This document shows, piece by piece, positions 221 to 25,098 of a stretch of 29,751 nt of DNA. Location of the stretch: IMG/VR virus record IMGVR_UViG_3300028844_000192, positions 1-29,751 of that record; one strand, given 5' to 3'. Each line of letters starts with the position of its first letter. Position 1 is the stretch's first letter. The position numbers were made by a program, and so were the translations under genes. Origin of the DNA: a virus. A model generated the notes under the pieces. It ran no database searches, was not told the origin of the DNA, and saw only the letters and a program-made list of their open reading frames with translations.

Positions 221-1864
221 TTAATCTGGAAGACCTTGTATTACATCACCTGCTATACCAGCAGCAGGATCATCTTCTGGTGGCACACTACTTGTTACAG
301 ATGTACTTGGATCAACTGCAGTAGCTCCACCATAGCTTTGAGCAATTGCCAACGCATCGTCATAACCACCTGAAGAAAATGCTTTAGCCATATCTCTAAG
401 AAGTGTTACTTGAGCTTTCTTTTCGGCAGCACTACCAGTTACAATACCTGTCGTTTCGTCATATGTTGCACCTGTACGAGTAGCAGCTATTCTACTAAGA
501 GCATTTAGATCAGCAGATTCAATGTCTGCACCACCTAGTGCATCCTTAATATCTGACAAGCTTTCTGCCTGAAGCTGTTTCATTTTAAGAGAAGCTTCTG
601 CCTGTGTCAACTTACCACTAGCCAAATCTTCTTCTATTTGATTTAATTCATCTTGAATAGCCTCTCGCTGCCCACTTGCATACTCTGCAGCACTAGCTGC
701 TTGTACACCAAATCCTGTTCCGGGTTCTGCACCTGCATATCCTACTAACAAATCTGAAATATAATTAATTGGTGATGTTTGTTTTTTAAGTTGTTCTTTC
801 TTTTCTTCTGCTAGTTTTTTACGTGCATCTAATGCTTCTTCCATAGCTGTATTATAATCAGTTAAACCAGTTTGTAAACTTAGTAAAGTTCCAAGAAGTT
901 GTTTGTTTACAGAATCAGTAGTTGCATTTTCTTCTGAACCTACAGTCATTCCATCTGACATTTGTTTTACCATACCAGATAGACCACCCTGTGATTTAAA
1001 TGCCACACGACCACCACTATTAAAGAAACCGAAACCACTGCCAATTTTACCTGCCGCACCAAGAACACCTGCAAGGTTTTGCATTGAAGAAGGTTTTTGT
1101 GGTGCATTATAAGGATTAAACTTTGAAGTAGATTGATAAGGATAACCGTACAGAGTAGACTGGTACTGAGCAAGTGTATCATATGGGAATTGTTTTTGTG
1201 CTTCAAACTCTGAACGTGCAATATCTAACCCTGATTGTGTCATACCACGTTGAGCTTCACCAATACCTGCAAGAGCAGTAAGTTCTGTCATTGCTTGTCT
1301 AGGTGCAACTTGACCTAATGCAGACAAACCAGAAGCTGCTGCACGTTCACGTTCTTTCTGTGCTTCAAATGCACGAAGACCAGTTTCATATGCAGCCTGA
1401 GAACCTTTAGTTTGAATGTTTCCAAGTTGTTGTTGTAAATTACGTTGACGTTCTGATTCAAGAATAGCTTGACGTGATCCACCAAAGCTACCAGCCTGTA
1501 CAGCTTTAGCAGCAATGTTTTGCATAGGGACTTGTGACTGACGGATGGCTTCACGTTTTTCTACATCTACAACGGCTTGCTGGTATGGTGACATATACTG
1601 AGCAGCCATTTGTGGTGTGAACTGTTGTGTCTGTCCCATAGTAAGAGCAGTAGCAGGAGCAAAGTACTGTTGACCAGTACCTACTAAACTTGCAATACCT
1701 TGCATGGCAGCAAGTTCATCAGGACTGAACCCAGCAATTTGATCACCAGTATAAGTTTGATAACCTAAACCTTTTTGTTTTTCATAAATTTCTTTTGATT
1801 CTTTAAGAACATCCTTTAAACCAGATTTATAATCTTCTGGTACTTCATATTGTGATTCAGCCAT
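221..1864 (-). CDS. Gln/Ala-rich putative ejection or internal tail protein (547 aa)
   Basis: Likely a virion protein that acts in the tail or in DNA delivery; this role is inferred from position and composition. Residues about 40-60 hold a GFSPDELAAMQ block. Residues about 90-140 hold a helical segment ending in SFGGSRQAILESE, a pattern I recall in many marine phage proteins near tail genes. A Gly-rich patch near residues 275-295 contains NSGGRV, followed by long Ala/Lys/Glu/Gln helices (about 330-450), probably coiled coil, and an acidic, Pro-rich C-terminus. There is no signal peptide. Its ATG overlaps the stop of the preceding gene as TAATG. Marine phage homologues are usually unnamed or called internal or DNA-transfer proteins. 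I am sure it is a real gene but not of its exact role. Confidence 0.75.
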   Translation of the reverse strand: MAESQYEVPEDYKSGLKDVLKESKEIYEKQKGLGYQTYTGDQIAGFSPDELAAMQGIASLVGTGQQYFAPATALTMGQTQQFTPQMAAQYMSPYQQAVVDVEKREAIRQSQVPMQNIAAKAVQAGSFGGSRQAILESERQRNLQQQLGNIQTKGSQAAYETGLRAFEAQKERERAAASGLSALGQVAPRQAMTELTALAGIGEAQRGMTQSGLDIARSEFEAQKQFPYDTLAQYQSTLYGYPYQSTSKFNPYNAPQKPSSMQNLAGVLGAAGKIGSGFGFFNSGGRVAFKSQGGLSGMVKQMSDGMTVGSEENATTDSVNKQLLGTLLSLQTGLTDYNTAMEEALDARKKLAEEKKEQLKKQTSPINYISDLLVGYAGAEPGTGFGVQAASAAEYASGQREAIQDELNQIEEDLASGKLTQAEASLKMKQLQAESLSDIKDALGGADIESADLNALSRIAATRTGATYDETTGIVTGSAAEKKAQVTLLRDMAKAFSSGGYDDALAIAQSYGGATAVDPSTSVTSSVPPEDDPAAGIAGDVIQGLPD

Positions 1865-2592
1865 TACACCAACTCCCTAAGTATTTTGTCACCGTCAATT
1901 TGTTTTATTTGTTTTCGTTGTCCAGTTGATGCTTCTCTTACATCTCCCATAAATTGGTCTAATTTTTCTGCACCTGCATCAGATGATCCATTACCCAACT
2001 TAGATACTACATCTGCGGGTAGTACATATTCATCTCTGCTAAGAAGTGCCTTATCAATTTTAGGATCACCTTTTACTTTAAACATAATATCATCAGACAT
2101 CCCATCGCCATTATTATTATTTACATCTAACATTCCTTCAAATGGTCGTCTACCCCCTGCTAGTGCTGCAATTCCACCAGTTGGTTGAAAATTATCTTGA
2201 TTTAAAGGCATCTGAGGGGGCATTGGCATACCCTGTGGTGGGGTAACACCAGAAAGACCCTGCATCTCGTCAGGAGCCATTGTAGGCTCACTATCGTCAT
2301 CTGCATTATAATCAGCTATTTTATTACGTCCAAAGTTCATTAATTCTTGCATTGCTTCTTTACCACTAGTTTCTGGCATCATTAACCCAGACAAGCCTTG
2401 CATTGCTGCCTCTAAATTAAAAGCTTCTGGTAATCCTGTATTTGGATTTGTGGTAAGTTTACCCATAGTTCGCATTATATTAATTTCAGGCTTAGACATA
2501 TGTACTAATTCTGTATCACCCATACGACCTTTCATGGCAAGTAAGTTTGCAATACCACTTTGAGGTGCTTGTCTATTTGTAAAGTATGCCAT
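1864..2592 (-). CDS. Conserved marine phage protein with DGMSDDI / EYVLPADVV block (242 aa)
   Basis: Function unknown. The first half is Met/Gln/Pro-rich and low in complexity (MPMPPQMP near residue 125). The second half holds the conserved block: an Asn/Asp loop DVNNNNGDGMSDDI near residues 155-170, then LLSRDEYVLPADVVSKLG near 185-200 and NGSSDAGAEKLDQFM near 202-217. I recall this pair of motifs from many uncultured marine phages, always beside tail or ejection genes, with no assigned role. The Asp/Asn spacing resembles a metal-binding loop but is not a canonical EF-hand. Its stop overlaps the next start (TAATG), so it is translated together with the 547-residue protein and may work with it. 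Confidence 0.75.
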   Translation of the reverse strand: MAYFTNRQAPQSGIANLLAMKGRMGDTELVHMSKPEINIMRTMGKLTTNPNTGLPEAFNLEAAMQGLSGLMMPETSGKEAMQELMNFGRNKIADYNADDDSEPTMAPDEMQGLSGVTPPQGMPMPPQMPLNQDNFQPTGGIAALAGGRRPFEGMLDVNNNNGDGMSDDIMFKVKGDPKIDKALLSRDEYVLPADVVSKLGNGSSDAGAEKLDQFMGDVREASTGQRKQIKQIDGDKILRELV

Positions 2593-3080: not shown

Positions 3081-4918
3081 TATCTCATTCCATCAGGTTG
3101 TATGTTTGCTCTAACAGAACCCCAACGCCATGAACCGTCTGAACTAGCAGACACAATATACTTTGCCTGTCTTCCTCTACCACGTAAATCTACTTTCTTT
3201 GTAGATTGTTGAATTGTAAAAGGTCCCTTTGAAACTGCAGGTCCATTAGGATACTCTTCAAACTGTAATGTAATATCTATGCTTCCATTATTTGTAATTG
3301 TATAATCAGGAATAATTCTATCTACAAACATAATTCTAGTTCCATCTTCAATTTCAAAGTTTGCAGACTCTAAGAATGAAGGCAGTATTTTACCGTCCCC
3401 ACGATATACATCAAATGGTTCATTATTCCAAATATGATTATCCGCAGTTGCCGATACCTTACCTGTTGCTATAGTGTTATCAAAAATATGTTGATCAGCA
3501 AAGGTAGAATAAAAAGATGTACCAAATACCCAATGATTTTCTTTATAATTATATATAATATAACTATCTGGTTCTACAGAATTAGCACTTGAATACAGCC
3601 AAATAATTTCATTAAATTCTGAATTAACTCCAGCAAATACTTTATCTTTATTTACCGTATTGAAGCTGTCATAAAGATAACGTCTTATAGGACAATCTAA
3701 ATTTCTTACTCTACCATCAAATGCATAGAAATTATTGTCACCCATCCAATAAGATATACCATCAACATCAATAGCTGCATGTGGTGCAATAAGGCCACAG
3801 TTACTTCCTACTTGTTGAAAGCTAAATATAAAAGGTGGACCAACAAACTGCTGAGTATACATTGCTGTGTCAGTCCATATATGAATACCATTACGTGAAC
3901 GTATGGCTCCTATAATTTCTGTACCACCTGTAAGAACTACTTCACCAGATGTTGAAGAAATAGAAGGTGTCCAATTAGTATAGTCTTCTTGATCAGACCA
4001 ACGTACAAGCATAGGATTATAACTACCTGTACCAAATTCATTAGTGCCATATGATACAACGTGCCTATCATTTGGTGAGATACGAATAGAATTATTAACA
4101 GAAGGAGCAGCAGACACAACCACTGCACGTTCTGGTGTTATAGATGCATCTACATCTAAAAAGAATATCTTACCACCTCTACGACAAGCTAACATATCTT
4201 CACCCCAATTGTCAAGGGACCATTGAGAACTTTTAAATGTTACAGCACCTGTAGCTGCTGGCCTATTCCATGCACGTCCACCAGTTGTGCTTACACCTGC
4301 ATTATATACACCTGCTCCATACCCAGTACCTTGAACAGGCACAGTGTTTTCTACAGGCAATATAAATTCTAAGTCTGCTGTACCGCCATCAGTTACTGCT
4401 GCGGCTGCAGAAGTTGTAGCAGAAATAGTAAAATTATTTAAACCACCAACAGCAACTACAGAAAATTCACCTTCTAATAAAATACCACTATTACCAATAG
4501 TAGTAGCAGAACTAATAAATATTCTATCATTAACAGACACACCATGATTTGTTATACTAATACTAACAAGTGGTGAGTTAAGTTGTGTATTCATTACACT
4601 GGTAAGGGTAGCAGCAGACACAAAAGGAGTACTATCATATAGTTGATTTGAATCTACTACATACAGAAACTTTTCTGTACCAAAGGACATAAGCTTTTTA
4701 GTATCATTGTCTGACCAAGTAATAAGGTCACGAGCAATACCTGTAAAGGTTGCATCATTAACAGCCTTAGTGTAACCTCTTAGGTTTTCAGGTTTGCCTT
4801 CCCTGAACCTAACCCTGTTACCATCAAACCACTTACCTTCTTCTGCATACTGTGTAGATTCTCTATGAAACCCCGGTATGAAATTAAGTTTGGCAAGCTT
4901 TCCTGAACTAGAAGCCAT
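3080..4918 (-). CDS. Large tail protein, nozzle/hub candidate (612 aa)
   Basis: Likely a structural tail protein. The N-terminus (about residues 5-50) has the pattern LNFIPGFHRESTQYAE, then WFDGNRVRFREGKPENLRGY, which I know from large tail proteins of marine short-tailed phages. The rest is almost entirely beta-rich, with repeated Trp/Tyr/Gly/Asp motifs (WSDNDTKKL, WSDQEDYTNW, YWMGDNNFYAFDGR) that suggest a propeller-like fold. An Ala/Thr-rich insert lies near residues 105-185. The remote analogue would be the hub/nozzle or packaged-DNA stabilisation proteins of P22- or SU10-type tails; this is inference from layout, since adaptor genes also occur in the window. The ATG lies three bases after the stop of the upstream fibre-like gene. 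Confidence 0.7.
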   Translation of the reverse strand: MASSSGKLAKLNFIPGFHRESTQYAEEGKWFDGNRVRFREGKPENLRGYTKAVNDATFTGIARDLITWSDNDTKKLMSFGTEKFLYVVDSNQLYDSTPFVSAATLTSVMNTQLNSPLVSISITNHGVSVNDRIFISSATTIGNSGILLEGEFSVVAVGGLNNFTISATTSAAAAVTDGGTADLEFILPVENTVPVQGTGYGAGVYNAGVSTTGGRAWNRPAATGAVTFKSSQWSLDNWGEDMLACRRGGKIFFLDVDASITPERAVVVSAAPSVNNSIRISPNDRHVVSYGTNEFGTGSYNPMLVRWSDQEDYTNWTPSISSTSGEVVLTGGTEIIGAIRSRNGIHIWTDTAMYTQQFVGPPFIFSFQQVGSNCGLIAPHAAIDVDGISYWMGDNNFYAFDGRVRNLDCPIRRYLYDSFNTVNKDKVFAGVNSEFNEIIWLYSSANSVEPDSYIIYNYKENHWVFGTSFYSTFADQHIFDNTIATGKVSATADNHIWNNEPFDVYRGDGKILPSFLESANFEIEDGTRIMFVDRIIPDYTITNNGSIDITLQFEEYPNGPAVSKGPFTIQQSTKKVDLRGRGRQAKYIVSASSDGSWRWGSVRANIQPDGMR

Positions 4919-13079: not shown

Positions 13080-13363
13080 TATATTAAATTCCAATACTTT
13101 AAAGTGTTATTAAATGTTGTAGTTACAGAAAGCCACGTACTATTCCTATCATTATTAGCTTCTGGTCTAGCATCCCTAATAAAGTACCTTTCATCAATTC
13201 TAGGTGATTTATTTTGCGGATGACTTTTTAAATCATAAGATCCATCATAATCAGTAGGGCATTGCATCATACCCATAGTATTCTTTTTTAATTGATTTAG
13301 TTTATACCTAAAGCCACAAGTATCACAAATACCAAATACATTTTTTATTCCTGCAGAACTCAT
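13079..13363 (-). CDS. Small Cys-containing phage protein, incomplete zinc-ribbon (94 aa)
   Basis: The N-terminal half has the pattern GICDTCGFRYKLNQLKK (residues 11-27) then MQCPTDYDG (34-41) and SHPQ (about 47-50). I recall a widespread marine phage family with this layout, C-x2-C-G-F-x-Y, then C-x2-C-x-D and HPQ, located beside connector and fibre genes. Here only three Cys are present (residues 13, 16, 35): the expected fourth Cys is replaced in CPTD. Zinc binding is therefore uncertain unless a His or Asp supplies the fourth ligand. It is coupled by TAATG to both neighbours. Function unknown; probably a tail or fibre attachment component. Confidence 0.65.
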   Translation of the reverse strand: MSSAGIKNVFGICDTCGFRYKLNQLKKNTMGMMQCPTDYDGSYDLKSHPQNKSPRIDERYFIRDARPEANNDRNSTWLSVTTTFNNTLKYWNLI

Positions 13364-14034
13364 TATACCATAACCCTTGGTTTTAAGAAAATACTAACTC
13401 GTTCTCTATCCTCATCCATAGCTCTTTGTAATCTATCTTCATATTCTTGTTTAATCATAGCAATACGTGTTGCTTCAACGTTGGGACGTTTCATAGACAT
13501 ATAGTATGCAAGCCCTGAAGTAAGGCAGGGAAGAAATCTACGAGATATATCTGCATTTTGAATAGCAGATTTATTTACATCTTCCATATAAGATACAATT
13601 TCTAATTTAATTTGATCGGTATTGTTTTCTGGAAGAGGCCACAAGTGAACTACAGGATTGCCACGTTCATGTCTAACTGCATATTGTGTAGTACGACCTG
13701 TTTGACCCTTATTAGGAATCTTTAAATATTCTTGCATAGATATACGTTCAAGCTGTATATCTGTATTATCTCTATTATGAACAGCTTCAAGCACATCAAT
13801 AGTAGAAGATGCTAATGTAAAAGTAGTTACACTTGTTACCAAAGTTACTGCAGATGTATTAGCAGTCCATAGCATTACACCACGATTCTGCCAATCTTGT
13901 AGTAATAAATTAATAGATCTACGTGCAGACTTAGGCTCATGCCCCAATGTCTGCTCACCACCAATCATTTCCAAGGCTTCTTGAATAACCTCGTCAATGT
14001 CCATGTTAAAATCGTATGTACCTGAAGTAGCCAT
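13363..14034 (-). CDS. Head-tail connector-like protein (223 aa)
   Basis: Likely part of the neck. The N-terminal half reads FNMDIDEVIQEALEMIGGE, then KSARRSINLLLQDWQNRGVM (about residues 34-53) and LWTA, a pattern I know from marine phage connector/adaptor proteins (helical bundle, then a beta region). The middle is beta-rich (ERISMQEYLKIPNK, YAVRHERGNPVVHLWPLPEN). The C-terminal third is helical: YYMSMKRPN, then a charged EYEDRLQRAMDEDRERV helix. Length and layout are usual for such proteins, and the analogue would be a P22 gp4-type accessory factor, though similarity is by pattern only. It overlaps both neighbours by TAATG. Confidence 0.65.
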   Translation of the reverse strand: MATSGTYDFNMDIDEVIQEALEMIGGEQTLGHEPKSARRSINLLLQDWQNRGVMLWTANTSAVTLVTSVTTFTLASSTIDVLEAVHNRDNTDIQLERISMQEYLKIPNKGQTGRTTQYAVRHERGNPVVHLWPLPENNTDQIKLEIVSYMEDVNKSAIQNADISRRFLPCLTSGLAYYMSMKRPNVEATRIAMIKQEYEDRLQRAMDEDRERVSIFLKPRVMV

Positions 14035-14282
14035 TATGATTTACCTCTATTGCCTAAATCTTTTTTCTTGCCCTTATACTTTCCAGAAGTCCTTGCTACT
14101 AGGCCTCTGGCTTTTAATCGGGCTAAATTCGTTGCGCCAATCCTCATACCAGCACGGTGCCTTTGTAGCAACTCTGTTATTTTTATTTTTGGCTTTGCGT
14201 TTACGTTTTTCTTTTTCTTGACCGGATTCTTTTTTCCGGGCTTTACTATTTGTTGCCCAACGGATGAACGATTTATAGCCAT
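14034..14282 (-). CDS. Very basic small protein (82 aa)
   Basis: Not assigned to a characterised family. It is dominated by Lys and Arg with two or three acidic residues, and begins MAINRSSVGQQIVKPGKKNP. A helical middle segment (TELLQRHRAGMRIGATNLARLKARG, residues about 37-61, quoted here only as its extent) is flanked by unstructured Lys-rich tails. This looks like a nucleic-acid- or capsid-binding peptide. It is the last member of a run of basic genes and is joined to both neighbours by TAATG. The start MAINR resembles that of the capsid protein, probably by chance. Confidence 0.6.
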   Translation of the reverse strand: MAINRSSVGQQIVKPGKKNPVKKKKNVNAKPKIKITELLQRHRAGMRIGATNLARLKARGLVARTSGKYKGKKKDLGNRGKS

Positions 14283-14617
14283 TAATAAAGCCTATTATGA
14301 GAGCCAACTGAACCTCCCCTTTTTCTTAAACCTGTACGTTTTTTAATATCATTAATTTTATTAATTTTAAGTTTAATTTTTTCTGCAAGATCAGGTGTTG
14401 GATTTATTTTATATTTTTCTTTCATAATTTTTAGATCTTTTTTTGATCCTTGTAGTTCTTTATTTTGACCAGAAGTACGTAAATTTTTTGTTGCACTATC
14501 TATTCTTTTTTTACTAGGTAAACCCATACCTGATTTAACCTGTTCTTTTTTTGAAAGACTAGGTTTTTTCTTTTTAGCAAAATTTTTTGCACCTGTTTTT
14601 ATAACTTTACCTAGCAT
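14282..14617 (-). CDS. Basic protein ending in GGSVGSHNRLY (111 aa)
   Basis: Unknown function. It is Lys-rich throughout (for example KNFAKKKKPSLSKKEQ near residues 12-27) and has a helical central part (about 60-95). The last 15 residues, LRKRGGSVGSHNRLY, match the end of the gene encoded immediately upstream (MKKGGRVGTHNRLY). The rest of the two proteins is not clearly similar. Stop-start overlaps (TAATG) link it to both neighbours. The shared C-terminus looks like a tag for a common partner. A role in DNA condensation or in packing inside the head is inference from charge and position. Confidence 0.6.
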   Translation of the reverse strand: MLGKVIKTGAKNFAKKKKPSLSKKEQVKSGMGLPSKKRIDSATKNLRTSGQNKELQGSKKDLKIMKEKYKINPTPDLAEKIKLKINKINDIKKRTGLRKRGGSVGSHNRLY

Positions 14618-14916
14618 TAGTACAACCTATTATGTGTGCCAACTCTACCACCTTTTTTCATAACACTTGGTTTAGTTACTGGTTTATTAGCTTGTGATGC
14701 ATCATACAAATACTTTTGATATTCTTCCATTTCTTTTTTACGTACTGGTGAACGTTTAGGTTTTGTTTTCATAGAACCACCTGACTTCTTTTTCTTAGGT
14801 GTTATTTCTTTAATTTTAATTTTAGGTTTACGTCTTCCTTTTGGTAAAGGCCTAGTATCTTTTTTAGCCCCCATCATTTCTAATACTTTATCAAATTCAC
14901 TATAATCTACAGCCAT
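14617..14916 (-). CDS. Basic protein ending in GGRVGTHNRLY (99 aa)
   Basis: Unknown function. The N-terminus (MAVDYSEFDKVLEMMGAKK, residues 1-19) is helical and mildly acidic. The middle is Lys/Pro/Arg-rich (GRRKPKIKIKEITPKKKKSGG). A second charged helix covers residues 60-78 (KKEMEEYQKYLYDASQ). The end MKKGGRVGTHNRLY repeats the ending of the next gene, including the terminal HNRLY. An internal KSGGSM near residue 45 resembles the same GG motif. The start has no overlap but lies 12 bases after the upstream stop. Confidence 0.6.
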   Translation of the reverse strand: MAVDYSEFDKVLEMMGAKKDTRPLPKGRRKPKIKIKEITPKKKKSGGSMKTKPKRSPVRKKEMEEYQKYLYDASQANKPVTKPSVMKKGGRVGTHNRLY

Positions 14917-14928
14917 TACTTTTCCCCT

Positions 14929-15285
14929 TTATGCTTTACCATATTTCTTATGCGATTGAGTTTTTGGTGGGCTTTTCTTGCTACCACCCTTACCAGCCCA
15001 CAGAACTTTATCAGCCCAGTAAGCAGCAGACAACTTACCCTTCTTAATATTTTTTCCATGCCTTGACTTAAATGAAGCCCTAGCTGTTTTAGAATAATTA
15101 TGACCGTATCCCTTTTGCCCATAGTGAATAAGTTTAATTGTATCTCCCTCTTTGGCAAGAACCATCCCTTTTTTTTCAGGGCGTGTAGACTTACGAGGTT
15201 TATTAAATCCTGCAAACGTTGTACCACGATACTCAATCCTTCCTGATGGTAATCTTTTAACTCCGGGGAACTTGCTTTTGGTCAT
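14929..15285 (-). CDS. Basic conserved phage protein with SRHGKNI / AAYWADKVLW motif (118 aa)
   Basis: Conserved but of unknown function. The start MTKSKFPGVKRLPSGRIEYRG is followed by a beta-like segment with IKLIHYGQKGYGHNY (about residues 50-64), then FKSRHGKNIKKGKLSAAYWAD and KVLW (about 73-96). I recall related G-x-K-x-Y then RH-x(n)-W-x-W patterns in phage and giant-virus proteins; here the usual Cys of some relatives are absent. The C-terminus is Lys-rich. It begins in a TAATG overlap with the next upstream gene (15285-15542), so the two are probably made in fixed ratio. Confidence 0.6.
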   Translation of the reverse strand: MTKSKFPGVKRLPSGRIEYRGTTFAGFNKPRKSTRPEKKGMVLAKEGDTIKLIHYGQKGYGHNYSKTARASFKSRHGKNIKKGKLSAAYWADKVLWAGKGGSKKSPPKTQSHKKYGKA

Positions 15286-15542
15286 TATGCTTTCCTATAC
15301 TTTCTGGTTTTCTTTGCGATAGTTTTAGGCTGCTTAACAAATTGTTTTCCTTGTTTAGTTCCTTTTCTTTTTGCTGCCGAAGTCTTTTGGTATTCCTTGG
15401 CTGATAATGCCTTGATTGCCTTTGCTGGTAGGTATCTTTCCCCGGTAGCTTTTGGACCTTGAGTAGACGGTTTACCACTCTTGGTTTTCCACTTTTGCTT
15501 TGTCCAAGCCTTTAAACTCCTCTGTGGTTTTTTTAAAGTCAT
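15285..15542 (-). CDS. Highly basic conserved protein, second half of a DUF5872-like pair (85 aa)
   Basis: By my count 23 Lys and 5 Arg among 85 residues against two acidic residues, so the net charge is about +26. The central pattern SLKAWTKQKWKTKSGKP, then GERYLPAKAIKALSAKEY and KQGKQFVKQP (residues about 9-76), matches the C-terminal half of bacterial proteins I recall as DUF5872 (name from memory). In those the first half is a YTKP..GQWSARKAQ domain; here that half is a separate gene at 16232-16534. The ATG is preceded by AGGA and closely by a promoter-like element. Function unknown, possibly nucleic-acid binding. Confidence 0.65.
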   Translation of the reverse strand: MTLKKPQRSLKAWTKQKWKTKSGKPSTQGPKATGERYLPAKAIKALSAKEYQKTSAAKRKGTKQGKQFVKQPKTIAKKTRKYRKA

Positions 15543-15552
15543 ATTTTATCCT

Positions 15553-15581
15553 ATTATAACATTAACTGTTTATATTTACAA
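15553..15581 (-). promoter_or_regulatory. Promoter-like element with shared 18-base motif
   Basis: On the minus strand: TTGTAA (-35-like, 15576-15581), 17-base spacer, TATAAT (15553-15558) with TG one base upstream (extended -10). It overlaps the 18-base motif at 15565-15582, which recurs at 23529-23546. A start about 7 bases downstream would leave only a few leader bases before the ATG at 15542, which is a caveat: it may serve distal genes or act as a binding site. Confidence 0.45.
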
Positions 15582-15683
15582 TGTGTTGACAAGAAAACAA
15601 AAAGCTAGTACAATAGCTAAACTATAATATCCTAAGACAATTAAAGATGCTAAACTTAATACCTTTAAACTTTTTTGTACCAT
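15576..15683 (-). CDS. 35-residue single-pass membrane microprotein
   Basis: An open frame of 35 codons starts at the ATG at 15683 (MVQKSLKVLSLASLIVLGYY) and ends in TAA at 15576-15578. The ribosome site AAGGAG lies 8 bases before the start, which is one of the best in the window. After a short basic N-terminus nearly all residues are hydrophobic (about 8-33), so it should span the membrane once. It fills most of a gap otherwise without a gene, between the 164-residue membrane protein and the basic cluster. It could be a holin-like or regulatory peptide; nothing in the sequence decides this. Confidence 0.5.
   Translation of the reverse strand: MVQKSLKVLSLASLIVLGYYSLAIVLAFCFLVNTL
15586..15614 (+). 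promoter_or_regulatory. Consensus-like sigma70 promoter on the opposite strand
   Basis: TTGACA (15586-15591), a 17-base spacer, and TACAAT (15609-15614) on the plus strand, where no gene is accepted. Transcription would run antisense to the 35-residue and 164-residue genes. The match is strong (11 of 12 bases) but a single match in AT-rich DNA can occur by chance. Confidence 0.35.
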
Positions 15684-15713
15684 ATAACATTCTCCTTTTA
15701 AAAAAATATTATA

Positions 15714-16208
15714 TCATATTTCTAAAGCATTTGCTACTGTAATCATAAGAAAAATAAAAAAGGATACTACCATTAATATTACACCACCTATGATTGCTCC
15801 AGCTTTAATTGTTTCCTCTATTTCTTTTTGTCTTTTTAGTTCTTTCTTTCTTTCTATTGCTGCTTGTTCTTTTGCTTCTTGTATTCTTTTTGATCTTTCA
15901 TCTACAATACTTTGCCATGTACCCGGACCAAAACGTAAATCAACTAGTGTCCTCATTTCATTTATTTTTTCTTGTGCAATCCTTGCATCTATAATTTCTT
16001 GTGCAACTGATTTAATTCCGAATTGATCTCCTAACTTAACACCAGAATTTTTAGAACGTGACTTTTGTACTTGTTGTTCACCTGTTAAAAGATTATCTAT
16101 TTGTCCCGCTATAGTTCCTATATCTTTTGCAGTATTAATATTATCCTTAATAAATTTAACAGATTGCTGGACAAGGGCAATACCTGTCAGAACTTCTGCT
16201 ACGACCAT
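15714..16208 (-). CDS. Conserved phage protein with C-terminal membrane helix (164 aa)
   Basis: Residues 1-40 form a helix (MVVAEVLTGIALVQQSVKF). A conserved core follows: LGDQFGIKSVAQEIIDARIA (59-78), then NEMRTLVDLRFGPGTWQSIV (83-102) and DERSKRIQEAKEQ. A charged helix rich in Lys/Glu (110-135) precedes one hydrophobic segment at about 137-159 (GAIIGGVILMVVSFFIFLMI), which ends near the C-terminus. I recall this LRFGPGTWQ family from many marine phages, without known function. The ribosome site (AGGGGA) supports the start. A tail-anchored membrane protein acting late in infection, or a virion component with a hydrophobic tail, are both possible. Confidence 0.7.
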   Translation of the reverse strand: MVVAEVLTGIALVQQSVKFIKDNINTAKDIGTIAGQIDNLLTGEQQVQKSRSKNSGVKLGDQFGIKSVAQEIIDARIAQEKINEMRTLVDLRFGPGTWQSIVDERSKRIQEAKEQAAIERKKELKRQKEIEETIKAGAIIGGVILMVVSFFIFLMITVANALEI

Positions 16209-16231
16209 GATTATCCCCTATCATTAGATCT

Positions 16232-16534
16232 TTAAGTTGTATAGCCACCACCAGCCTTCTTATAAGCTTGTGCTAACATCTGAGCTTTACGAGCACTCCA
16301 CTGACCCGGAGCACCCCCTTTGCTACCTGCTTTAATTTTTTCAAATAGTTTTTTACGCATACCCGGTTTGGTATAGTTACCAGCTTTATTAACTGTAGAC
16401 TTTGGTTTACCACCACGAGATAAAGGCTTTACACTCTTGCGAGTATAAGAACCTTTTCCCTTTTTAGGTTTAACAACCTTTGGTTGGTATAGTCTGTTGG
16501 CTAAAGACTTAGCAACAGGGTTTTCTTTACCCAT
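16232..16534 (-). CDS. Basic conserved protein with KAGSKGGAPGQWSARKAQ motif (100 aa), first half of a DUF5872-like pair
   Basis: Residues about 52-98 (GNYTKPGMRKKLFEKIKAGS then KGGAPGQWSARKAQMLAQAY and KKAGGGY) match the N-terminal half of bacterial DUF5872-type proteins as I remember them. Residues 1-50 are Lys/Arg-rich and disordered (VVKPKKGKGSYTRKSVKP). The matching second half is a separate gene at 15285-15542. The start is well supported by GGAGGG 5 bases before the ATG. It lies 9 bases after the 473-residue basic protein. Function unknown; the charge suggests binding to nucleic acid or an acidic capsid surface. Confidence 0.7.
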   Translation of the reverse strand: MGKENPVAKSLANRLYQPKVVKPKKGKGSYTRKSVKPLSRGGKPKSTVNKAGNYTKPGMRKKLFEKIKAGSKGGAPGQWSARKAQMLAQAYKKAGGGYTT

Positions 16535-16543
16535 AATACCCTC

Positions 16544-17965
16544 CTATTTTTTAGGTTTACGTGCAGCCCCAAAACCTCTTACCTGACGAGCACAACCACT
16601 TTTAATGCTACCACCCTCTCCAAATTTAGCTGCCAAAGCTGGGTCCATTTTATTTTGAACAGCTTCAGGAAGTTTAGAAAAACCATCGTATTTTTTAGGT
16701 GGATTTGAAGGTTTTTTACCTGCGGGTTTTCTAGATTTAAAAACTGGCGGTCTTTTAGCTGTTTTCATTCCAGCTTTTTTAATTCCACCAAATGTAATCT
16801 TTTTTTCTCCAGTATATTGAGCATCTTTTTGTGGAGTATCATACTTAGTTGTATTATACTTATTAACAGTCTTAGTCATAGGTTTTGTTTTTTTACCTAC
16901 CTTACCACCAGACATTTTATTATTAGCTGTGTTTTTAAAACGCATATTGCGAGCAGCTATATAATCTGCTTTACCTGCAGCAAGATTACCCTGTGTACCT
17001 GCAATAGCAGCTTTAGCAGCCGCCTTACCAGTACCACCATACATTTTCATAAGTGCCTTACGTTCTCCTGCACTGCCGGGAAAGATATTGCCTTTAAGAC
17101 CAAAGCCAGTATTTTTACTTGCAGAAATAGCTGTTTTTTCTACAATCCTTGGCCCTTTTGTTTTAGGTGCAGCTTTTGTTTTAGTTGATGGTTTAGGTAG
17201 TCCTTGCACTTTTGGTTTTGGTTTCGGCATAGCCATAGGTTTACCTGCATCAGATGGTTTACCCTCTAATGCTTTTTTACCTTGAGCAATTGTTCCCAAA
17301 GCCGCACCAGTTTTTACAATATTACCAATACCCGGTTTAAGTGGTTTTTGTTGAGTAGTAGTTCTTTGCTGTGATGGACGCATAGTACTAGAACGCCCAC
17401 TACCTACAGGACGTGGACCTGCTGTTGTTTTGCCACCACCTTTAGGAACTGAACCACTAACTGGTCTTTTAGGTAATAGAGAAGTGCGAGGCTTCTGATT
17501 AAAAACTTTTTCTGCAGTAGTAACGCCAGTCTTACCTTGACCAACTATTGGTTTTTTAGGAATAACTTTAGGTGCTTTTTTTAAAGCAGGTGGTGTTTTC
17601 TTTAAAGAAGGTGGTGTTTTCTTTAAAGAAGGTGGTTGCTTCTTTAATGTAGCACGACCTACTCCTGCAGTAGGTTTAGAAAGTTTTGGTGCTGCCTGTA
17701 CTGCACCTTCTCCCATCTGACGACCCCTACCTGCACCTGAGATAGGTTTAAATGGTTTAACACCTGCTGCTGTACGCATCTTAGGAGCAATGTTTTTAGC
17801 TTGCTTTACAGATGTAACAGTAGGTACTTTACTTGCACCTCCTGCTTTTTTAACAGCTTGTGTAGTTGCTTTTTTAGCACCTTGACGCATCAGTTGTTGA
17901 ATTACTTTAGGAGCAACTGCACGTACTACATTACCCCCAATTATTAATAGAAGTGGAAGAGCCAT
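16544..17965 (-). CDS. Large basic low-complexity protein with GGSIKSGC tail tag (473 aa)
   Basis: Unknown function. The N-terminus has a hydrophobic stretch (LPLLLIIGGNVVRAV, residues 3-17) that could be a membrane or core-binding helix. Residues 20-430 are Lys/Pro/Ala/Gly/Thr-rich with almost no predicted fold. A tandem repeat of LKKTPPS lies near residues 108-128, recalling histone H1-like tails. An internal SGGKVGKK occurs near 355. The C-terminus FGEGGSIKSGCARQVRGFGA resembles the end of the following 437-residue protein (GGKV... RGCGAAMRGYGKA). The gene overlaps its upstream neighbour by TAATG. A capsid-internal or DNA-binding role is inference. Confidence 0.6.
   Translation of the reverse strand: MALPLLLIIGGNVVRAVAPKVIQQLMRQGAKKATTQAVKKAGGASKVPTVTSVKQAKNIAPKMRTAAGVKPFKPISGAGRGRQMGEGAVQAAPKLSKPTAGVGRATLKKQPPSLKKTPPSLKKTPPALKKAPKVIPKKPIVGQGKTGVTTAEKVFNQKPRTSLLPKRPVSGSVPKGGGKTTAGPRPVGSGRSSTMRPSQQRTTTQQKPLKPGIGNIVKTGAALGTIAQGKKALEGKPSDAGKPMAMPKPKPKVQGLPKPSTKTKAAPKTKGPRIVEKTAISASKNTGFGLKGNIFPGSAGERKALMKMYGGTGKAAAKAAIAGTQGNLAAGKADYIAARNMRFKNTANNKMSGGKVGKKTKPMTKTVNKYNTTKYDTPQKDAQYTGEKKITFGGIKKAGMKTAKRPPVFKSRKPAGKKPSNPPKKYDGFSKLPEAVQNKMDPALAAKFGEGGSIKSGCARQVRGFGAARKPKK
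17580..17642 (-). repeat. 21-bp tandem repeat in the 473-residue basic protein
   Basis: Three consecutive copies of a 21-base unit (tttaaagaaggtggtgtttt c on the plus strand, with small differences) encode a seven-residue motif LKK[TQA]PP[SA]. Near-identical copies suggest recent expansion by slippage. Confidence 0.8.
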
Positions 17966-19278
17966 TATGTTATTCCTTTCATTGCTTTACCGTAGCCACG
18001 CATTGCTGCACCACAACCACGTGGGCTTTTTGATTTAATTTGTTTACCTGATTTGTACATACCTACTTTGCCACCTTTACGTTTATTTACTGTGGCAGTC
18101 TTAGTTCCCATTCTAGTAGGTGATGAAGGACTACTAATTTTAGTTGCTTGCTTCTTAGCATCACTAACTTTGTTTTGTTGTAGATCATTTGCAATATTAG
18201 TAAGCCTACGTTTTTCTGTTTGAGCTTCTGTAATTTCCTTACGAAGTTTATTCTTAACTTCTGAAGTCTTTGCATTTTTTAATGCTGTTTCTGCTCTATC
18301 AATACGTTGTTCTACAACAGGAATATCTTTATTACGAATCTTATTAATTTGTGATTCGGCACGTTTGATATTCTTTTGTACTGCTTTTTTCTCACCACTA
18401 ACTTTTGGTGGTGTCTTTGCACCAAGAGGTGGAAGTAAACCTTTTGCTTTTAAACGATTACGCAAACCTTCTATTTTACTTTTTGGTTTATTAGCTATAC
18501 GAACACCCGGTTCTTTTGTCATCATTATAGTTTTTAATTGAGTTGTTGTAAAGTCTGGAGCAAATCTTTTTTGAATGTACTCTAGCTTTTCAGATAAACG
18601 CATTTGTTTAAAGGTATCTTTATCTACCTTTTTACCTTTAACAGTAGGTTGCTCATTCATCGTCTGATAAAGATATTCATTTTTCTTTGTGCCTGTAGGA
18701 CCAGAAGCAGCAATAATCTTCTGAGTTCCACCACGTGTTTTAATAAGTTTTTCACCTGCAGGAGTAAGAGAAAGAGTACGATCCATAATCGTTACTCGTT
18801 CTTTACCTTCATTCTTCATATCCTGTAAAGCTCTTCTAATTAAGCTTCTACGTTCTTTCATTTGTTCTTCAGAAAAACCTTTAAATGCTCCTCGTGAACG
18901 AAGCTTTGAAGTTTCTTTACGAGCACGTGACATAACCTTTTTAACACGAGGTGCAGCATTTTCTGCTTTCTTAATAGCATCTGCTACAGAAATCTTGCCC
19001 TTTGTTTCTTTTACTTCTGCAATGGCATTTGTTTTTACATTTCCAGAAACATCTTTGTTACGAATTTCTGAAATCTTTTTATCAATCATTCGATCTCGTG
19101 TAAGACCTGCTTTAGTAGTACCTGCTTTTTCTGCAGCTTCTGCTTGACGTTGTTGATAAGTTGCTTGACGTGCTTTAGATTGTGCAGCACGTTTACCTCT
19201 GCCTTTGCGTTTGTCTACCTTCGGCCTACCACGTCCTTTTGTAGCAGCTTTAATAATAGGTTTAATAATGTTTGCCAT
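17965..19278 (-). CDS. Large basic helical protein with RGCGAAMRGYGKA tail tag (437 aa)
   Basis: Unknown function. The N-terminal 50 residues are Lys/Arg-rich (GRGRPKVDKRKGRGKRAAQS, an AT-hook-like GRGRPK at about 15-20). Long charged helices fill residues 50-200 and 290-390 (AESQINKIRNKDIPVVEQRI, ETALKNAKTSEVKNKLRKEI), probably coiled coil. A short ordered patch near 205-275 contains EKLEYIQKRFAPDFTT. The end contains RKGGKVGMYKSGKQIKS and PRGCGAAMRGYGKAMKG, which I recall from the ends of several small marine phage proteins. It begins directly after the adaptor gene (GGGAG ribosome site). A DNA-binding or internal head protein is plausible but not shown. Confidence 0.6.
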   Translation of the reverse strand: MANIIKPIIKAATKGRGRPKVDKRKGRGKRAAQSKARQATYQQRQAEAAEKAGTTKAGLTRDRMIDKKISEIRNKDVSGNVKTNAIAEVKETKGKISVADAIKKAENAAPRVKKVMSRARKETSKLRSRGAFKGFSEEQMKERRSLIRRALQDMKNEGKERVTIMDRTLSLTPAGEKLIKTRGGTQKIIAASGPTGTKKNEYLYQTMNEQPTVKGKKVDKDTFKQMRLSEKLEYIQKRFAPDFTTTQLKTIMMTKEPGVRIANKPKSKIEGLRNRLKAKGLLPPLGAKTPPKVSGEKKAVQKNIKRAESQINKIRNKDIPVVEQRIDRAETALKNAKTSEVKNKLRKEITEAQTEKRRLTNIANDLQQNKVSDAKKQATKISSPSSPTRMGTKTATVNKRKGGKVGMYKSGKQIKSKSPRGCGAAMRGYGKAMKGIT

Positions 19279-19953
19279 TTATGTGCTCCCTTGTACGATT
19301 GGATTATCTGCACCTGCTGGGCTGGCTGGTGCTTCCATATCGTCCCTTCTTGTTCTACGTGCTTGGTTTCGTAATGATTCGACTGCTTGTTGAAATCTTG
19401 TTTCAAACAATTGACTAGCTTGATAGTCTTTCATAAATATAAGTGATTCAACCATACAGGCATTAAATAAAGCATCATAACAAAAATCAGTAAAGTAATT
19501 ATTTGGTGTAGCAGATGTTAATGTAATGGGTCTGCTAGTATATCCTATCTCACCATCATACGTTGATACAGGAGTAGGAGCAATAATAATTGTTGTGTTG
19601 TCACGTTTGCCATAATACTGTGGAACTCCTGTGCTTGCGCTTACAGGCCAGTAGTCCCTAATGTACTCATCTGTACGTTGTAATAATTGAATTTTAGTTG
19701 GATCAGTAGTGCTAGTAAGAGAGGTTTGAATGTTTAAACTTTTTACTACTCTTGTTCCAGAAACTAATGTAATAAGATTGTTATCTACAGATACGGCTAC
19801 AGATGTATATGTTACTAAACCATAGTCGTCAAGAACTCTTGTCAGACGATCTTCTGCTCTATTAACAATCTTTGGAATATAATTTAAAAACTCTGTGCCA
19901 TCATTTTCTGTAGCACCAATTAAGTCTTCAACTAAAAAAGTATAATTAGCCAT
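19279..19953 (-). CDS. Head-tail adaptor candidate (224 aa)
   Basis: Likely sits beneath the portal. The N-terminal 45 residues are helical (LNYIPKIVNRAEDRLTRVLD), a beta region follows (LVTYTSVAVSVDNNLITLVS, VPQYYGKRDNTTIIIAPTP), and a helix near residues 165-205 has the pattern NNYFTDFCYDALFNACMVES LIFMK. That combination, P-x-Y-Y ... I-x-x-A-P-x-P ... Y-x-x-x-Y-x-x-R-P, then a Tyr/Ala/Cys-rich helix, is what I recall for adaptor proteins of short-tailed marine phages (SU10-adaptor-like, name from memory). The C-terminus is basic then Pro-rich. It overlaps the upstream 101-residue gene by 8 bases. Confidence 0.65.
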   Translation of the reverse strand: MANYTFLVEDLIGATENDGTEFLNYIPKIVNRAEDRLTRVLDDYGLVTYTSVAVSVDNNLITLVSGTRVVKSLNIQTSLTSTTDPTKIQLLQRTDEYIRDYWPVSASTGVPQYYGKRDNTTIIIAPTPVSTYDGEIGYTSRPITLTSATPNNYFTDFCYDALFNACMVESLIFMKDYQASQLFETRFQQAVESLRNQARRTRRDDMEAPASPAGADNPIVQGST

Positions 19954-20364: not shown

Positions 20365-21309
20365 CTAGCTTGAGCCAGAAGCACCATAGAAACCACGCCA
20401 GTCGGAAAAACCGAAGCTGTAACGTTCACGAGCCTTGAACCGAATATTTCCGGTGTCAAAGTCTGGTTCCATTTTAGTTTGCAATGCAGCACGTACAAAC
20501 ATTTTTGTACCATTAGGACAATCTGTCTTAATGAACCAAGCATTTGTATCGGTAAACCTACGATTGACGTAGAAGCCACCCGGTACAAGACCTTGATTAC
20601 GGATTGAGTTAATGTCGTTAACATTAGTCGCACCGTTAGCTGCAGTTGTTGGGTTCACACCAATGGTTGTTGACATTGTGCTGTTCAGAATCTGATCAGC
20701 AGTAAATGCCAAGTCTGATGGAATATGCAAAGACTTAGCTTGCAGACCAATTAGAATACCACGGTCATCTTTGGCTTTTGAAATGGTGATCAGTGATGAT
20801 TCCAAAGAAGCTTCTGACAAGTCAGTTGCTCCAAGGCTGTTAGACTGATTACCTGCGCCAATGGTTGGATGCGAAGCAGAGAACAATGGTTGACCATCGC
20901 CACCCTGAAACGCAGTATTAAAGCCGTTGTTAAACACATCAGCAGCTTTAACTTGTTTAGTGTTTGCCATAGCACGTGCAAGACCACGAGCACGAAGCTT
21001 TGCAAATGTATCGTAGAGGTTGTCTTCCATTGCCTCTTCGGTAACAGCAAATGCCAGTGCGATTGTCTCGTGTGTGTAACGTGACGTAAAGCTCTCTTGA
21101 GCATCATCATAGGACACTGCGGCACCTTCACCTTTAACAGGTGCAGTACCAAATCCTGTAAACAATACTTCTTCTTCAAATGCACGATCTGAGTTTTCTG
21201 TCTCAAATAACGGTGCATGTTCATCAGCTACTTCCCCATACTCCATACCGAATACGGCATTAAGACCGGGGAGAAGCTCTTTTGCAATACTTGCTCTATT
21301 AATAGCCAT
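20365..21309 (-). CDS. Major capsid protein, HK97-type (314 aa)
   Basis: Forms the head shell. Residues 80-130 hold an acidic then helical spine region (EEAMEDNLYDTFAKLRARGL ARAMANTKQ), followed by VFNNGF and DGQPLFSASHP (about 138-148), a sequence I know from marine phage capsid proteins. Before it, an E-loop-like region (EEVLFTGFGTAPVKGEGAAV, residues 46-65) is visible. The C-terminal half has RFTDTNAWFIKTDCPNGTKM and a final KARERYSFGFSDWRGFYGAS. Length is typical. It has a GGGAG ribosome site, follows the scaffold and decoration genes, and is followed by a strong terminator. Confidence 0.9.
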   Translation of the reverse strand: MAINRASIAKELLPGLNAVFGMEYGEVADEHAPLFETENSDRAFEEEVLFTGFGTAPVKGEGAAVSYDDAQESFTSRYTHETIALAFAVTEEAMEDNLYDTFAKLRARGLARAMANTKQVKAADVFNNGFNTAFQGGDGQPLFSASHPTIGAGNQSNSLGATDLSEASLESSLITISKAKDDRGILIGLQAKSLHIPSDLAFTADQILNSTMSTTIGVNPTTAANGATNVNDINSIRNQGLVPGGFYVNRRFTDTNAWFIKTDCPNGTKMFVRAALQTKMEPDFDTGNIRFKARERYSFGFSDWRGFYGASGSS

Positions 21310-22489: not shown

Positions 22490-23461
22490 TTAATATACTG
22501 TAGTATACTCGCCTTCAGCTTTATCTACTTTAAGCTTTTCGGCTGCATACTGTTCCAAGGGTATACCCCATTTTTCTGCCAACCGCACATCTTCTTTAGT
22601 AAGACGTACTTTTTTACCAGAAGAGGCTGATGAAGTGCGTGATGCTCCACCTACCACTTGGGCAGGACTTGACGTTTCCTGCTGACGTTCTGTTGTTTCA
22701 GTTTGTCCTTCAAATCTTTGAGGAAATTTGTTTTTCAAACGTGAATCAATCTCTCCATAAAAATCTTCTTCAGTAGGGTCAAACCCTTCCGATTTTAATT
22801 CCGCATCTACCTCTAAGGCAAGAGTGGTCATTACATTGTCTTGACCAAACCACGGATTTCGACCTGCCCACTCCATTGCAAGTTTGTCATATTCTACAGC
22901 TTTTTGCTGCTGCTGTGGAGCTTGCTTAGTCTCTTGCTGCTGTTCTTCTTCTTCAGGACGATACTGACTTTTAGTAATCTTTAAAGTAGTTGCATCACCT
23001 TGAGCATTATTTAAATTTTTCTGGGCTGCGACAATTCGATCTGCCTCGCCTGATTCTAATGCTTGTCTGTAAGCATCTTCAGCCATTTCAATACGGCTAT
23101 TAATTTGGGTTTCAGCAGCTTCAAAGTTTTTTTCTAAAGAAGATTTAATTTCTTGTTGCTGATTTTTTAATCGTTCTTCTAATTCTTGCTGTCGAGCAAT
23201 AAGACTTTGAATATGTTCTTCTCGCTCTTTCTTTTGTTTAACTAGTTGACGTATGCGTTTTTGTGCTCCAGACTGTTGTTCTTCTGGTTCTTCAGCAGAT
23301 TCTTGCTTAGTCTCAACCTGTGTTTCAGTTTTTTGAGACTGTACACGTTCTTCTGAAACTTCACTAGATGCATCAACTTCTTCTGTTTCAATTTCAAATT
23401 CTACTTTTTCTTCCTCGTTTACGGTTGGGGAAGTATTTACCGTTGCCCATTCTTCAGACAT
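22490..23461 (-). CDS. Scaffolding protein (323 aa)
   Basis: Likely guides head assembly and is absent from the mature head. The N-terminal 65 residues are acidic and Glu/Gln/Thr/Ser-rich. A long coiled coil follows (about 66-155). A Gln-rich linker precedes a conserved block near 198-212 (WAGRNPWFGQDNVMT) and GFDPTEEDFYGEIDSRL, which is typical of marine phage scaffolds. The C-terminal 75 residues contain a basic patch (KKVRLTKEDVRLAEKWG) that would bind the capsid protein. No protease domain is seen. It is the first gene after a promoter-like gap and has an AAGGAG ribosome site. Confidence 0.8.
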   Translation of the reverse strand: MSEEWATVNTSPTVNEEEKVEFEIETEEVDASSEVSEERVQSQKTETQVETKQESAEEPEEQQSGAQKRIRQLVKQKKEREEHIQSLIARQQELEERLKNQQQEIKSSLEKNFEAAETQINSRIEMAEDAYRQALESGEADRIVAAQKNLNNAQGDATTLKITKSQYRPEEEEQQQETKQAPQQQQKAVEYDKLAMEWAGRNPWFGQDNVMTTLALEVDAELKSEGFDPTEEDFYGEIDSRLKNKFPQRFEGQTETTERQQETSSPAQVVGGASRTSSASSGKKVRLTKEDVRLAEKWGIPLEQYAAEKLKVDKAEGEYTTVY

Positions 23462-23567: not shown

Positions 23568-23984
23568 TTAGTTAGCTAAATTAAATGTGGGATCTAGTTC
23601 TTTAGGGTCTTCTACAATCATAGATATTTGATCATCTGTTAGTAACAAAAGTTTAATACCTTTGTAAAAAAACTTTTGACCAGAATGTTTACCATAACAA
23701 ACATAGTCACCCTCTTGGCACCATGCACCATTTGGGTAACGAGCTTTGTCTTTGTAAGCATCTGTACCTACAACTAATACTTTTCCTACTGTAGTCAAGT
23801 ACTTCATATCTTCAACTGTAGAGTCAGGAAGAATAATACCACCCTTAGTTTCTGCCTTGATAGAGACAGGCCGTATAAGAATATGATAACCCGGAACTTC
23901 GGGTAGCACTAAAGGATCAGGAACCTCTTTATTAGTATTCCATGCATCATTAAGAATAGATTTGTCCATTGCTACTGCTCTCAT
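23568..23984 (-). CDS. GroES-like co-chaperonin (138 aa)
   Basis: A small chaperonin cofactor, probably paired with host GroEL to fold the capsid protein. After a 25-residue charged extension, the GroES fold begins at PGYHILIRPVSIKAETKGGI (31-50). The mobile-loop motif KGGIILPDST (47-56) is present, then TVGKVLVVG (65-73), and an EGDYVCYGKHSG loop (91-102) that matches the typical G-D-x-V region. The end is LLLTDDQISMIVED. It is somewhat longer than cellular GroES (about 95 residues). The start is preceded by GAGGAG 5 bases upstream, formed by codons of the preceding gene. It lies between portal and scaffold, typical for assembly helpers. Confidence 0.85.
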   Translation of the reverse strand: MRAVAMDKSILNDAWNTNKEVPDPLVLPEVPGYHILIRPVSIKAETKGGIILPDSTVEDMKYLTTVGKVLVVGTDAYKDKARYPNGAWCQEGDYVCYGKHSGQKFFYKGIKLLLLTDDQISMIVEDPKELDPTFNLAN

Positions 23985-23986
23985 TT

Positions 23987-24178
23987 TTACTCCTCTTCGT
24001 CTTCATACATTACTTTATTTACTATATTTTTAACTTCGGCTTTGGCCCATTCCAATCCTGAAATGCGACCTACAGCGTTCATATATGTATGATAATCGGA
24101 AGCTCCACCAGATGCAAGTGAATTTTTTACTACATCTATTTCTTTTTGTAATGTTCTATGTATTTCTTCTATTAGCAT
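23987..24178 (-). CDS. Small conserved phage protein (63 aa)
   Basis: Unknown function. It is helical and charged (MLIEEIHRTLQKEIDVVKNS), with a central SLASGGASDYHTYMNAVGRI (about residues 19-38) I recall from short marine phage proteins next to portal or capsid genes, then GLEWAKAEVKNIV. It ends in the acidic run EDEEE, whose codons supply the ribosome site of the co-chaperonin gene. It begins in TAATG with the 306-residue gene. Perhaps a small head-assembly accessory; no motif gives an activity. Confidence 0.65.
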   Translation of the reverse strand: MLIEEIHRTLQKEIDVVKNSLASGGASDYHTYMNAVGRISGLEWAKAEVKNIVNKVMYEDEEE

Positions 24179-25098
24179 TATATAGCCTTTGGTTCATAGT
24201 TATATGGATTACGTTCTATACTTCCACCTGACTTAAACTTTTCTATTTGTCCTACACCTTTAGAAAAAGAAGGGATAGCATCTACTTCAATATAATCATA
24301 TAAAGGTCTTACCGCTTTATTAATTTCTATTTCCCCAACAATATTTCCAAGTCTAATATCACCAACAGTTGAAGGACGTAAATTGGGTTGAGGTACAACA
24401 AGCTTACCTTTTTCCATTGCCTTTTTAGTCATACGTTTCATATTAACAGGACCAACAAATTGTGTATCCAAAGTATAATAATGTTTTCCATTTTTAGGTT
24501 GAACAGCTACAATAGGATGATCTAATATTCTTTTATTACCTTCTACTATTACTTTAAATTTTTCTGGTTGAACAAGATTTGTATTAATTTCTTTTCCTTG
24601 TTTACCAGTATTTTGTTTATAATTTTTTTCCATACTTTCAATAGAAAGATTTTCAGAAACAGTGTTTGCTCTTGCAGTTGTTTTATTTTCACCACTGCTT
24701 TTTTTAAATGAAGTGCGAGGACTAATAAAAAGATTTTCAAAAGTTTCATTAGATACATCAGTAGGTTTACCTTTACCCATCATAATGTAATTACCAAAAT
24801 CTAAATCAAGTTCAATACCTGCTTTAGATAAACCCTCTGCCATTTTTTCTTTGTAGTCACGTTTGGCAGGATCAAAAAATCTTCCGGGGGCTGGCATAAT
24901 AGAAGCAGCATCAGGAAATTTTTCTGAATCTATAGAACGTTCTAAGCGAGGACGAAGTGTTTCTTCAACACTTTCTTCCATACGCATTATAGGTTTATCT
25001 TTTGCAACTAACTTTTTTGAAGAACCTCTGCCTACTGTTTTAACTGGCGTGACAAATTCTTTTAATAGTGTTTTTGCTACTCCTGTTAATCCTGACAT
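24178..25098 (-). CDS. Unknown protein with GGSIERNPYNY tail (306 aa)
   Basis: Not recognised by fold. The N-terminus (MSGLTGVAKTLLKEFVTPVK) is followed by a Lys-rich, mostly hydrophilic body with MRMEESVEETLRPRLERSID (38-57) and several Asn/Gly stretches. A beta-like region near 180-215 contains KRILDHPIVAVQPKNGKHYY. The end KFKSGGSIERNPYNYEPKAI has the ERNPY-type tail I recall from marine phage proteins, and its GGSI resembles the GG motif of the basic proteins. It starts four bases after the portal stop codon, using a ribosome site inside the portal C-terminus. Position suggests a head accessory protein. Confidence 0.6.
   Translation of the reverse strand: MSGLTGVAKTLLKEFVTPVKTVGRGSSKKLVAKDKPIMRMEESVEETLRPRLERSIDSEKFPDAASIMPAPGRFFDPAKRDYKEKMAEGLSKAGIELDLDFGNYIMMGKGKPTDVSNETFENLFISPRTSFKKSSGENKTTARANTVSENLSIESMEKNYKQNTGKQGKEINTNLVQPEKFKVIVEGNKRILDHPIVAVQPKNGKHYYTLDTQFVGPVNMKRMTKKAMEKGKLVVPQPNLRPSTVGDIRLGNIVGEIEINKAVRPLYDYIEVDAIPSFSKGVGQIEKFKSGGSIERNPYNYEPKAI

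Follow-up and report, generated by a model that had tools for sequence, protein, structure and literature searches.

In phage T4, a targeting sequence loads basic, variable internal proteins, and packaging also takes in the ADP-ribosyltransferase Alt (PMC9026906). In the short-tailed phage P22, the scaffold recruits the internal ejection proteins gp7, gp16 and gp20 (PMC8402733). Encapsulins rely on a short, usually C-terminal cargo peptide that attaches to an HK97-type shell from the inside (PMC7355545), and polyvalent proteins are predicted to be packaged and injected and are thought to deliver enzymes (PMC5512222). We found no description of a tail of the kind reported below in the open-licence literature.

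The window, i.e. the whole stretch of DNA that was analysed, comprises 29,751 bases with 34 proteins and was read as a marine tailed phage. It encodes a terminase, a portal, GroES, a capsid, two SU10-type adaptors and a DNA ejection protein homologue, and all structural genes lie on its minus strand. The original prediction was that a motif xGG[KRS][VIM], recurring in otherwise unrelated proteins and often near the C-terminus, is either a common docking tag for capsid or scaffold or a double-glycine processing site. All eight motifs listed there were confirmed in position on the minus strand. The pattern occurs nine times in the window, compared with 1.8 (s.d. 1.3) in residue shuffles, where nine or more were reached in 0 of 2000; the block 14282-19278 alone has six against 0.53. 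The C-terminal placement held for several copies, whereas others are internal (for example NSGGRV, SGGKV and KSGGSM). The ninth motif, RGGKI, is internal to the structural protein of 3080-4918 and may be a chance occurrence. The motifs and their genes are the following:

1004..1018, minus strand: SGGRV (NSGGRV), internal, in the context FFNSGGRVAFKSQGG, within the DNA ejection protein homologue
221-1864, minus strand: gene of the DNA ejection protein homologue, 547 aa, phrog_4287
14285..14323, minus strand: class A tag KRGGSVGSHNRLY (KRGGSV, 12 aa from the end), C-terminus of the 111-aa protein
14282-14617, minus strand: gene of the 111-aa protein, net charge +25, with a class A tag; the NRLY$ class recurs in relatives
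14620..14658, minus strand: class A tag KKGGRVGTHNRLY (KKGGRV, 12 aa from the end), C-terminus of the 99-aa protein
14770..14787, minus strand: KSGGSM, internal, 55 aa from the C-terminus of the 99-aa protein
14617-14916, minus strand: gene of the 99-aa protein, net charge +19, with a class A tag and the internal KSGGSM
16547..16618, minus strand: class B-like tag EGGSIKSGCARQVRGFGAARKPKK (EGGSI, 24 aa from the end), C-terminus of the 473-aa protein
16898..16912, minus strand: SGGKV, internal, 122 aa from the end of the 473-aa protein
16544-17965, minus strand: gene of the 473-aa protein, net charge +89, with a class B-like tag and the internal SGGKV
17968..18078, minus strand: class B tag KGGKVGMYKSGKQIKSKSPRGCGAAMRGYGKAMKGIT (KGGKV, 37 aa from the end), C-terminus of the 437-aa protein
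17965-19278, minus strand: gene of the 437-aa protein, net charge +71, with a class B tag
24181..24231, minus strand: class C tag SGGSIERNPYNYEPKAI (KSGGSI, 17 aa from the end), C-terminus of the 306-aa protein
24178-25098, minus strand: gene of the 306-aa class C protein, adjoining the portal gene

Pfam and PHROGs scans of these tagged proteins assigned no function. The genes around them that matter for the argument are:

1864..2592, minus strand: 242-aa protein with LSRDEYVLPADVV (EYVLPADVV protein), beside the ejection protein, with a counterpart fused in the giant proteins described below
13363..14034, minus strand: second SU10-type adaptor, downstream border of the tagged block (PF24175, 3.8e-10)
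19279..19953, minus strand: SU10-type adaptor, upstream border of the tagged block (PF24175, 1.3e-17)
20365..21309, minus strand: major capsid protein of the Phage_capsid_4 and Mu-like gpT families, used for the tag-class tree
22490..23461, minus strand: acidic protein (net charge -26) in the scaffold position; a scaffold role is suggested by position and composition

The capsid sequence had no match among solved structures. The presence of two SU10-type adaptors in one genome, on either side of the tagged block, was recorded as an observation in its own right. A GroES-like co-chaperone gene (23568-23984, minus strand) lies between portal and capsid and is retained in the named relatives. Inside the block, an untagged 118-aa basic protein (14929-15285, minus strand) matched phrog_7595, phrog_9979 and part of phrog_220. 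A 100-aa basic protein (16232-16534, minus strand; LANRLYQPKVVKPKKGKGSYTRK) scored above the cut-off for Pfam ArfA (PF03889, 2.5e-8) and resembles the bacterial alternative ribosome rescue factor A; Pelagibacter phage HTVC027P has a similar 58-aa ORF (L097:5769-5945).

Comparison of the tags showed that the conservation goes further than the original prediction had it, since a conserved terminal piece follows the GG motif. In full, the unit consists of KxGG[KSRQ][VI] followed by one of four types of terminal piece, defined post hoc from the sequences themselves ($ marks the C-terminus):

class A: ..HNRLY$
class B: ..RGxGxAxRGxGKA..
class C: ..ERNPYNYEPKAI$
class Y: ..xxYD$, for example ITYRMSGGQVVDSSYD$

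The tags lie 10-37 aa from the C-terminus. In a set of 237 tagged proteins, where the GG[KSRQ][VI] columns are fixed by the selecting pattern and only the residue shares are informative, GG was followed by K in 165, S in 37, Q in 22 and R in 12, and the next residue was V in 177 and I in 58. When 105 tagged proteins were aligned, the two glycines were nearly the sole near-invariant columns. That the hosts of the motif differ in size and sequence was borne out by BLAST: the tagged bodies, which are basic, fell into 60 unrelated families among 77 tagged representatives and into 65 among 211 distinct tagged proteins of a larger set, counts that are approximate in both directions because of low-complexity sequence. 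One and the same class was found on at least two unrelated bodies in 47 loci, and seven body families bear more than one terminal class. The class B tag of the 437-aa protein is kept in relatives down to 48% identity.

Relatives were gathered by the capsid (80 loci) and by the 437-aa protein (8 loci); their ORFs came from a simple longest-ORF script, i.e. heuristic gene calls on fragmentary contigs, and the 1292 proteins were reduced to 350 representatives at 50% identity. The C-terminal enrichment that the original prediction had called for was indeed found: GG[KRS][VIM] occurred 99 times in the last 45 residues of these representatives against 7.7 expected, and 36 times elsewhere against 12. 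Within the same 45 residues, GGKV alone was found 50 times (1.7 expected) and valine at position +2 after GG 99 times (11.6 expected), whereas reordered controls stayed near chance: 13 against 7.4 for [VIM][KRS]GG, 8 against 7.3 for GG[VIM][KRS] and 9 against 8 for G[KRS]G[VIM]. Using tblastn with the short tails as sole queries gave identical copies or no matches. Conservation at the DNA level as the cause of the motif was ruled out by codon variation: 99 motifs were spelled by 63 different 12-base sequences, and the NRLY tails vary at synonymous sites. Because the codons vary while the residues are kept, the tag is a property of the protein and not of the DNA.

Tags are found almost exclusively in late genes. 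Among the genes of six long relatives (records of 53-61 kb), those with the motif in the last 45 residues numbered 19 of 253 on the strand of the capsid gene and 1 of 230 on the opposite strand (Fisher p 4e-5). In the closest long relative, a 106-aa protein that lies past the ejection genes, well away from the block, carries an NRLY tail. On the capsid tree (85 proteins), one change separated the 17 loci with class A from the 17 with class Y; no locus had both, and class B was present in both groups. Classes A and Y look like clade-specific equivalents, and the split is compatible with clade-wide inheritance, a change of host or co-evolution with a partner. A blind search of viral contigs with a DNA pattern (GGK[VI] plus the class B piece) led, among the matches listed, to new loci of which 77 of the 79 checked had large-ORF homologues, and the remaining two had small-ORF homologues of the same phage group. 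Judged from these sequences, the tag is specific to the phage lineage among the matches listed. The capsid's nearest named relatives, at 51-56% identity, include DSL-LC04, HTVC023P, HTVC027P, Pag-Yong1 and CRP-902; clear tags were not found in several relatives with the same capsid type (CRP-902, Caulobacter phage RW). Isolates that do carry class B-like tails include Pelagibacter phage HTVC023P (on gp32 and gp51) and Planktothrix phage Pag-Yong1 (UMO75986). Tails of the form GDGIAxRGxTxG are widespread in prophages, and a link to them was considered and dropped, as all 18 matches in 84,980 bacterial and archaeal genomes were chance-like.

Most tagged bodies have no recognisable domain, and the others mostly have one. 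Pfam matches at E<0.001 among 105 tagged representatives were LysM (10), SLT transglycosylase (2), ART-PolyVal (2), phage lysozyme (1) and Phage_L5_gp82 (1); further matches were few, single, weak and to unrelated families. The SLT match reached 6.5e-20, and the domain also matches solved lytic transglycosylases; the lysozyme match on a tagged protein was at 3.4e-9. ART-PolyVal matched at 1.1e-7, with L174:47-718 above the cut-off and a protein of L276 just under it. Among 2613 distinct proteins, a set partly chosen by the tag itself, a whole or partial tag was present on 19 of 19 LysM, 4 of 4 SLT and 4 of 4 L5_gp82 proteins, compared with about 10% over all; one lysozyme-like giant was untagged. 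The LysM proteins of loci selected by the capsid (L015, L016, L022, L028, L067, L082) were likewise tagged. A tagged 282-aa protein (L015:3583-4431) strongly matched phrog_30118 (5e-59).

The class C body links the tag to larger proteins. Homologues of the 306-aa body occur both as tagged solo proteins and as a domain of proteins of 870-1470 aa, with 48-53% identity. In L253, such a giant is flanked by the portal gene and a scaffold-like gene, which is the slot that the class C gene occupies in the window, and the portal and giant of L253 match HMO-2011-type roseophages, best CRP-13. The alignment of solo and fused forms showed that KF and GG are invariant and that homology stops at KFxxGG; after this joint, the solo forms continue with ERNPYNYEPKAI and the fused forms with a segment containing DDIPAMLSEGEYVVPADV. 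This downstream segment gave weak (E about 0.4) but consistent matches to siphophage tape measure proteins. By eye, what precedes the same joint in CRP-9 looks similar to the L5_gp82-type body that other class C proteins have. GG motifs (FNxGGxV) also mark domain borders of the giants. The giant post-portal protein of L253 (L253:2603-7000) combines repeated FNxGGxV-type linkers with HEMSH, a possible zincin motif. Structure prediction over the class C body, the GG joint and the EYVVPADV element had a mean pLDDT of 44, too poor for use.

To summarize, the tag is real, C-terminal and carried by unrelated bodies; it occurs almost solely in late genes, and its conservation is at the protein level. 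Our main reading, to which we give a probability of roughly 0.6, is that it is a modular C-terminal tag that marks late proteins for loading into the virion interior and for exit with the DNA. We infer that proteins made late, bearing an interchangeable C-terminal tag with a GG core, would bind an assembly partner through it, be packaged into the virion interior, and later pass, along with the DNA, out of the particle and into the next host cell. The partner could be the scaffold, the inner capsid surface or the ejection-protein complex, including the EYVLPADVV protein. With bodies swapped freely and the tag retained, the phage would ship a changing set of proteins; the proposed cargo comprises small basic proteins, entry helpers that bind or cut peptidoglycan, and host-modifying enzymes, and virion loading fits the cargo kinds seen (SLT, lysozyme, LysM, ART-PolyVal). 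The scaffold is a natural candidate receptor because the P22 scaffold recruits ejection proteins (PMC8402733), and the acidic protein of 22490..23461 is a possible tag receptor. Proteins fused in one lineage frequently interact in another. The 242-aa EYVLPADVV protein is one candidate docking partner because its counterpart is fused to the class C body. Of the docking tag originally predicted, the tag common to unrelated proteins therefore stands, whereas its partner need not be capsid or scaffold, as shell, scaffold and ejection complex could each serve. Each of the four terminal classes may represent a binding flavour of its own. Somewhat short of even odds, we would extend this reading to a lineage-wide, reprogrammable cargo address, in which terminal flavours would stand for places or steps, and the sister HMO-2011-type phages would have hard-wired the modules into giants at the GG joint.

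Alternatively, the tails could dock their proteins, wall-active ones among them, at the tail or the adaptor complex rather than inside the DNA-filled head. The adaptor genes flanking the tagged block and the LysM, SLT and lysozyme domains, which suit a wall-crossing tail, agree with this; yet many bodies are small and highly basic without a wall domain, ART-type cargo must reach the cytoplasm, and there are tags next to the portal gene and past the ejection genes as well, so that we consider such docking unlikely. Slightly less probable still is that GG is a cleavage site, where a phage or host protease would remove the tail at head maturation or after entry and cut the giants between domains. 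GG motifs do lie at the domain borders of giants and at the base of solo-protein tails, a protease trims the targeting peptides off in T4 (PMC9026906), polyvalent proteins often have metallopeptidase domains with a proposed processing role (PMC5512222), and HEMSH of the L253 giant could be zincin-like. However, no protease family was present among the head genes of the window that were scanned, and neither the late proteins of the six long relatives nor those named giants that were examined contain HExxH. Moreover, constraint peaks downstream of GG (V/I at +2), and a cut after GG would remove the conserved terminal piece. The double-glycine processing site of the original prediction is unsupported, although a cargo tag might be trimmed off at a later stage, as happens in T4.

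It is very unlikely that the tails are generic Lys/Gly-rich ends that bind nucleic acid or membrane without a specific partner: bodies and tails are basic and disordered-looking, but residue order is strongly specific, the terminal pieces are constant down to the very last residue, and A and Y are mutually exclusive by clade. Spread of short homologous segments by recombination at gene ends, without shared function, is highly improbable, for although solo and fused class C homology breaks exactly at the motif, like a recombination joint, residues are kept despite codon variation, early genes have no tails and the cargo domains are far from random.

If virion loading is the correct reading, one short pattern predicts dozens of unannotated marine phage proteins as virion cargo, entry enzymes and host-modifying enzymes among them, and would make it possible to test directly how short-tailed phages select their cargo. 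It would also account for neighbouring genes that are variable in body and constant at the end.

Among the described systems, P22 is comparable in that the window has a phrog_4287 ejection protein, but recruitment there involves the N-terminal portions of gp7 and gp20 at least, and the cited paper reports no common C-terminal tail (PMC8402733). The polyvalent proteins share the late-gene setting and the ART-PolyVal, lysozyme and L5_gp82-type modules; here, in contrast, separate proteins are linked by the common tail alone, and the fused giants belong to HMO-2011-type phages. Encapsulin cargo likewise has a C-terminal peptide common to unrelated proteins, whereas encapsulins are not phages and carry no DNA, and we claim no sequence kinship between their peptide and the phage tag. 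The T4 CTS of IPI, IPII and IPIII is also a short end peptide common to small, basic, poorly conserved proteins, with which a phage loads a varied protein set. It is, however, N-terminal and removed by the gp21 protease, whereas the tag described here is C-terminal, with no protease found in the window head genes scanned, and has another sequence, four terminal classes and a podovirus-type adaptor and capsid. Because position and sequence differ, we do not class the phage tag as a T4 CTS. On our best reading, it would work like the T4 CTS or the encapsulin cargo peptides and, if so, would be a compact C-terminal counterpart of the T4 targeting sequence.
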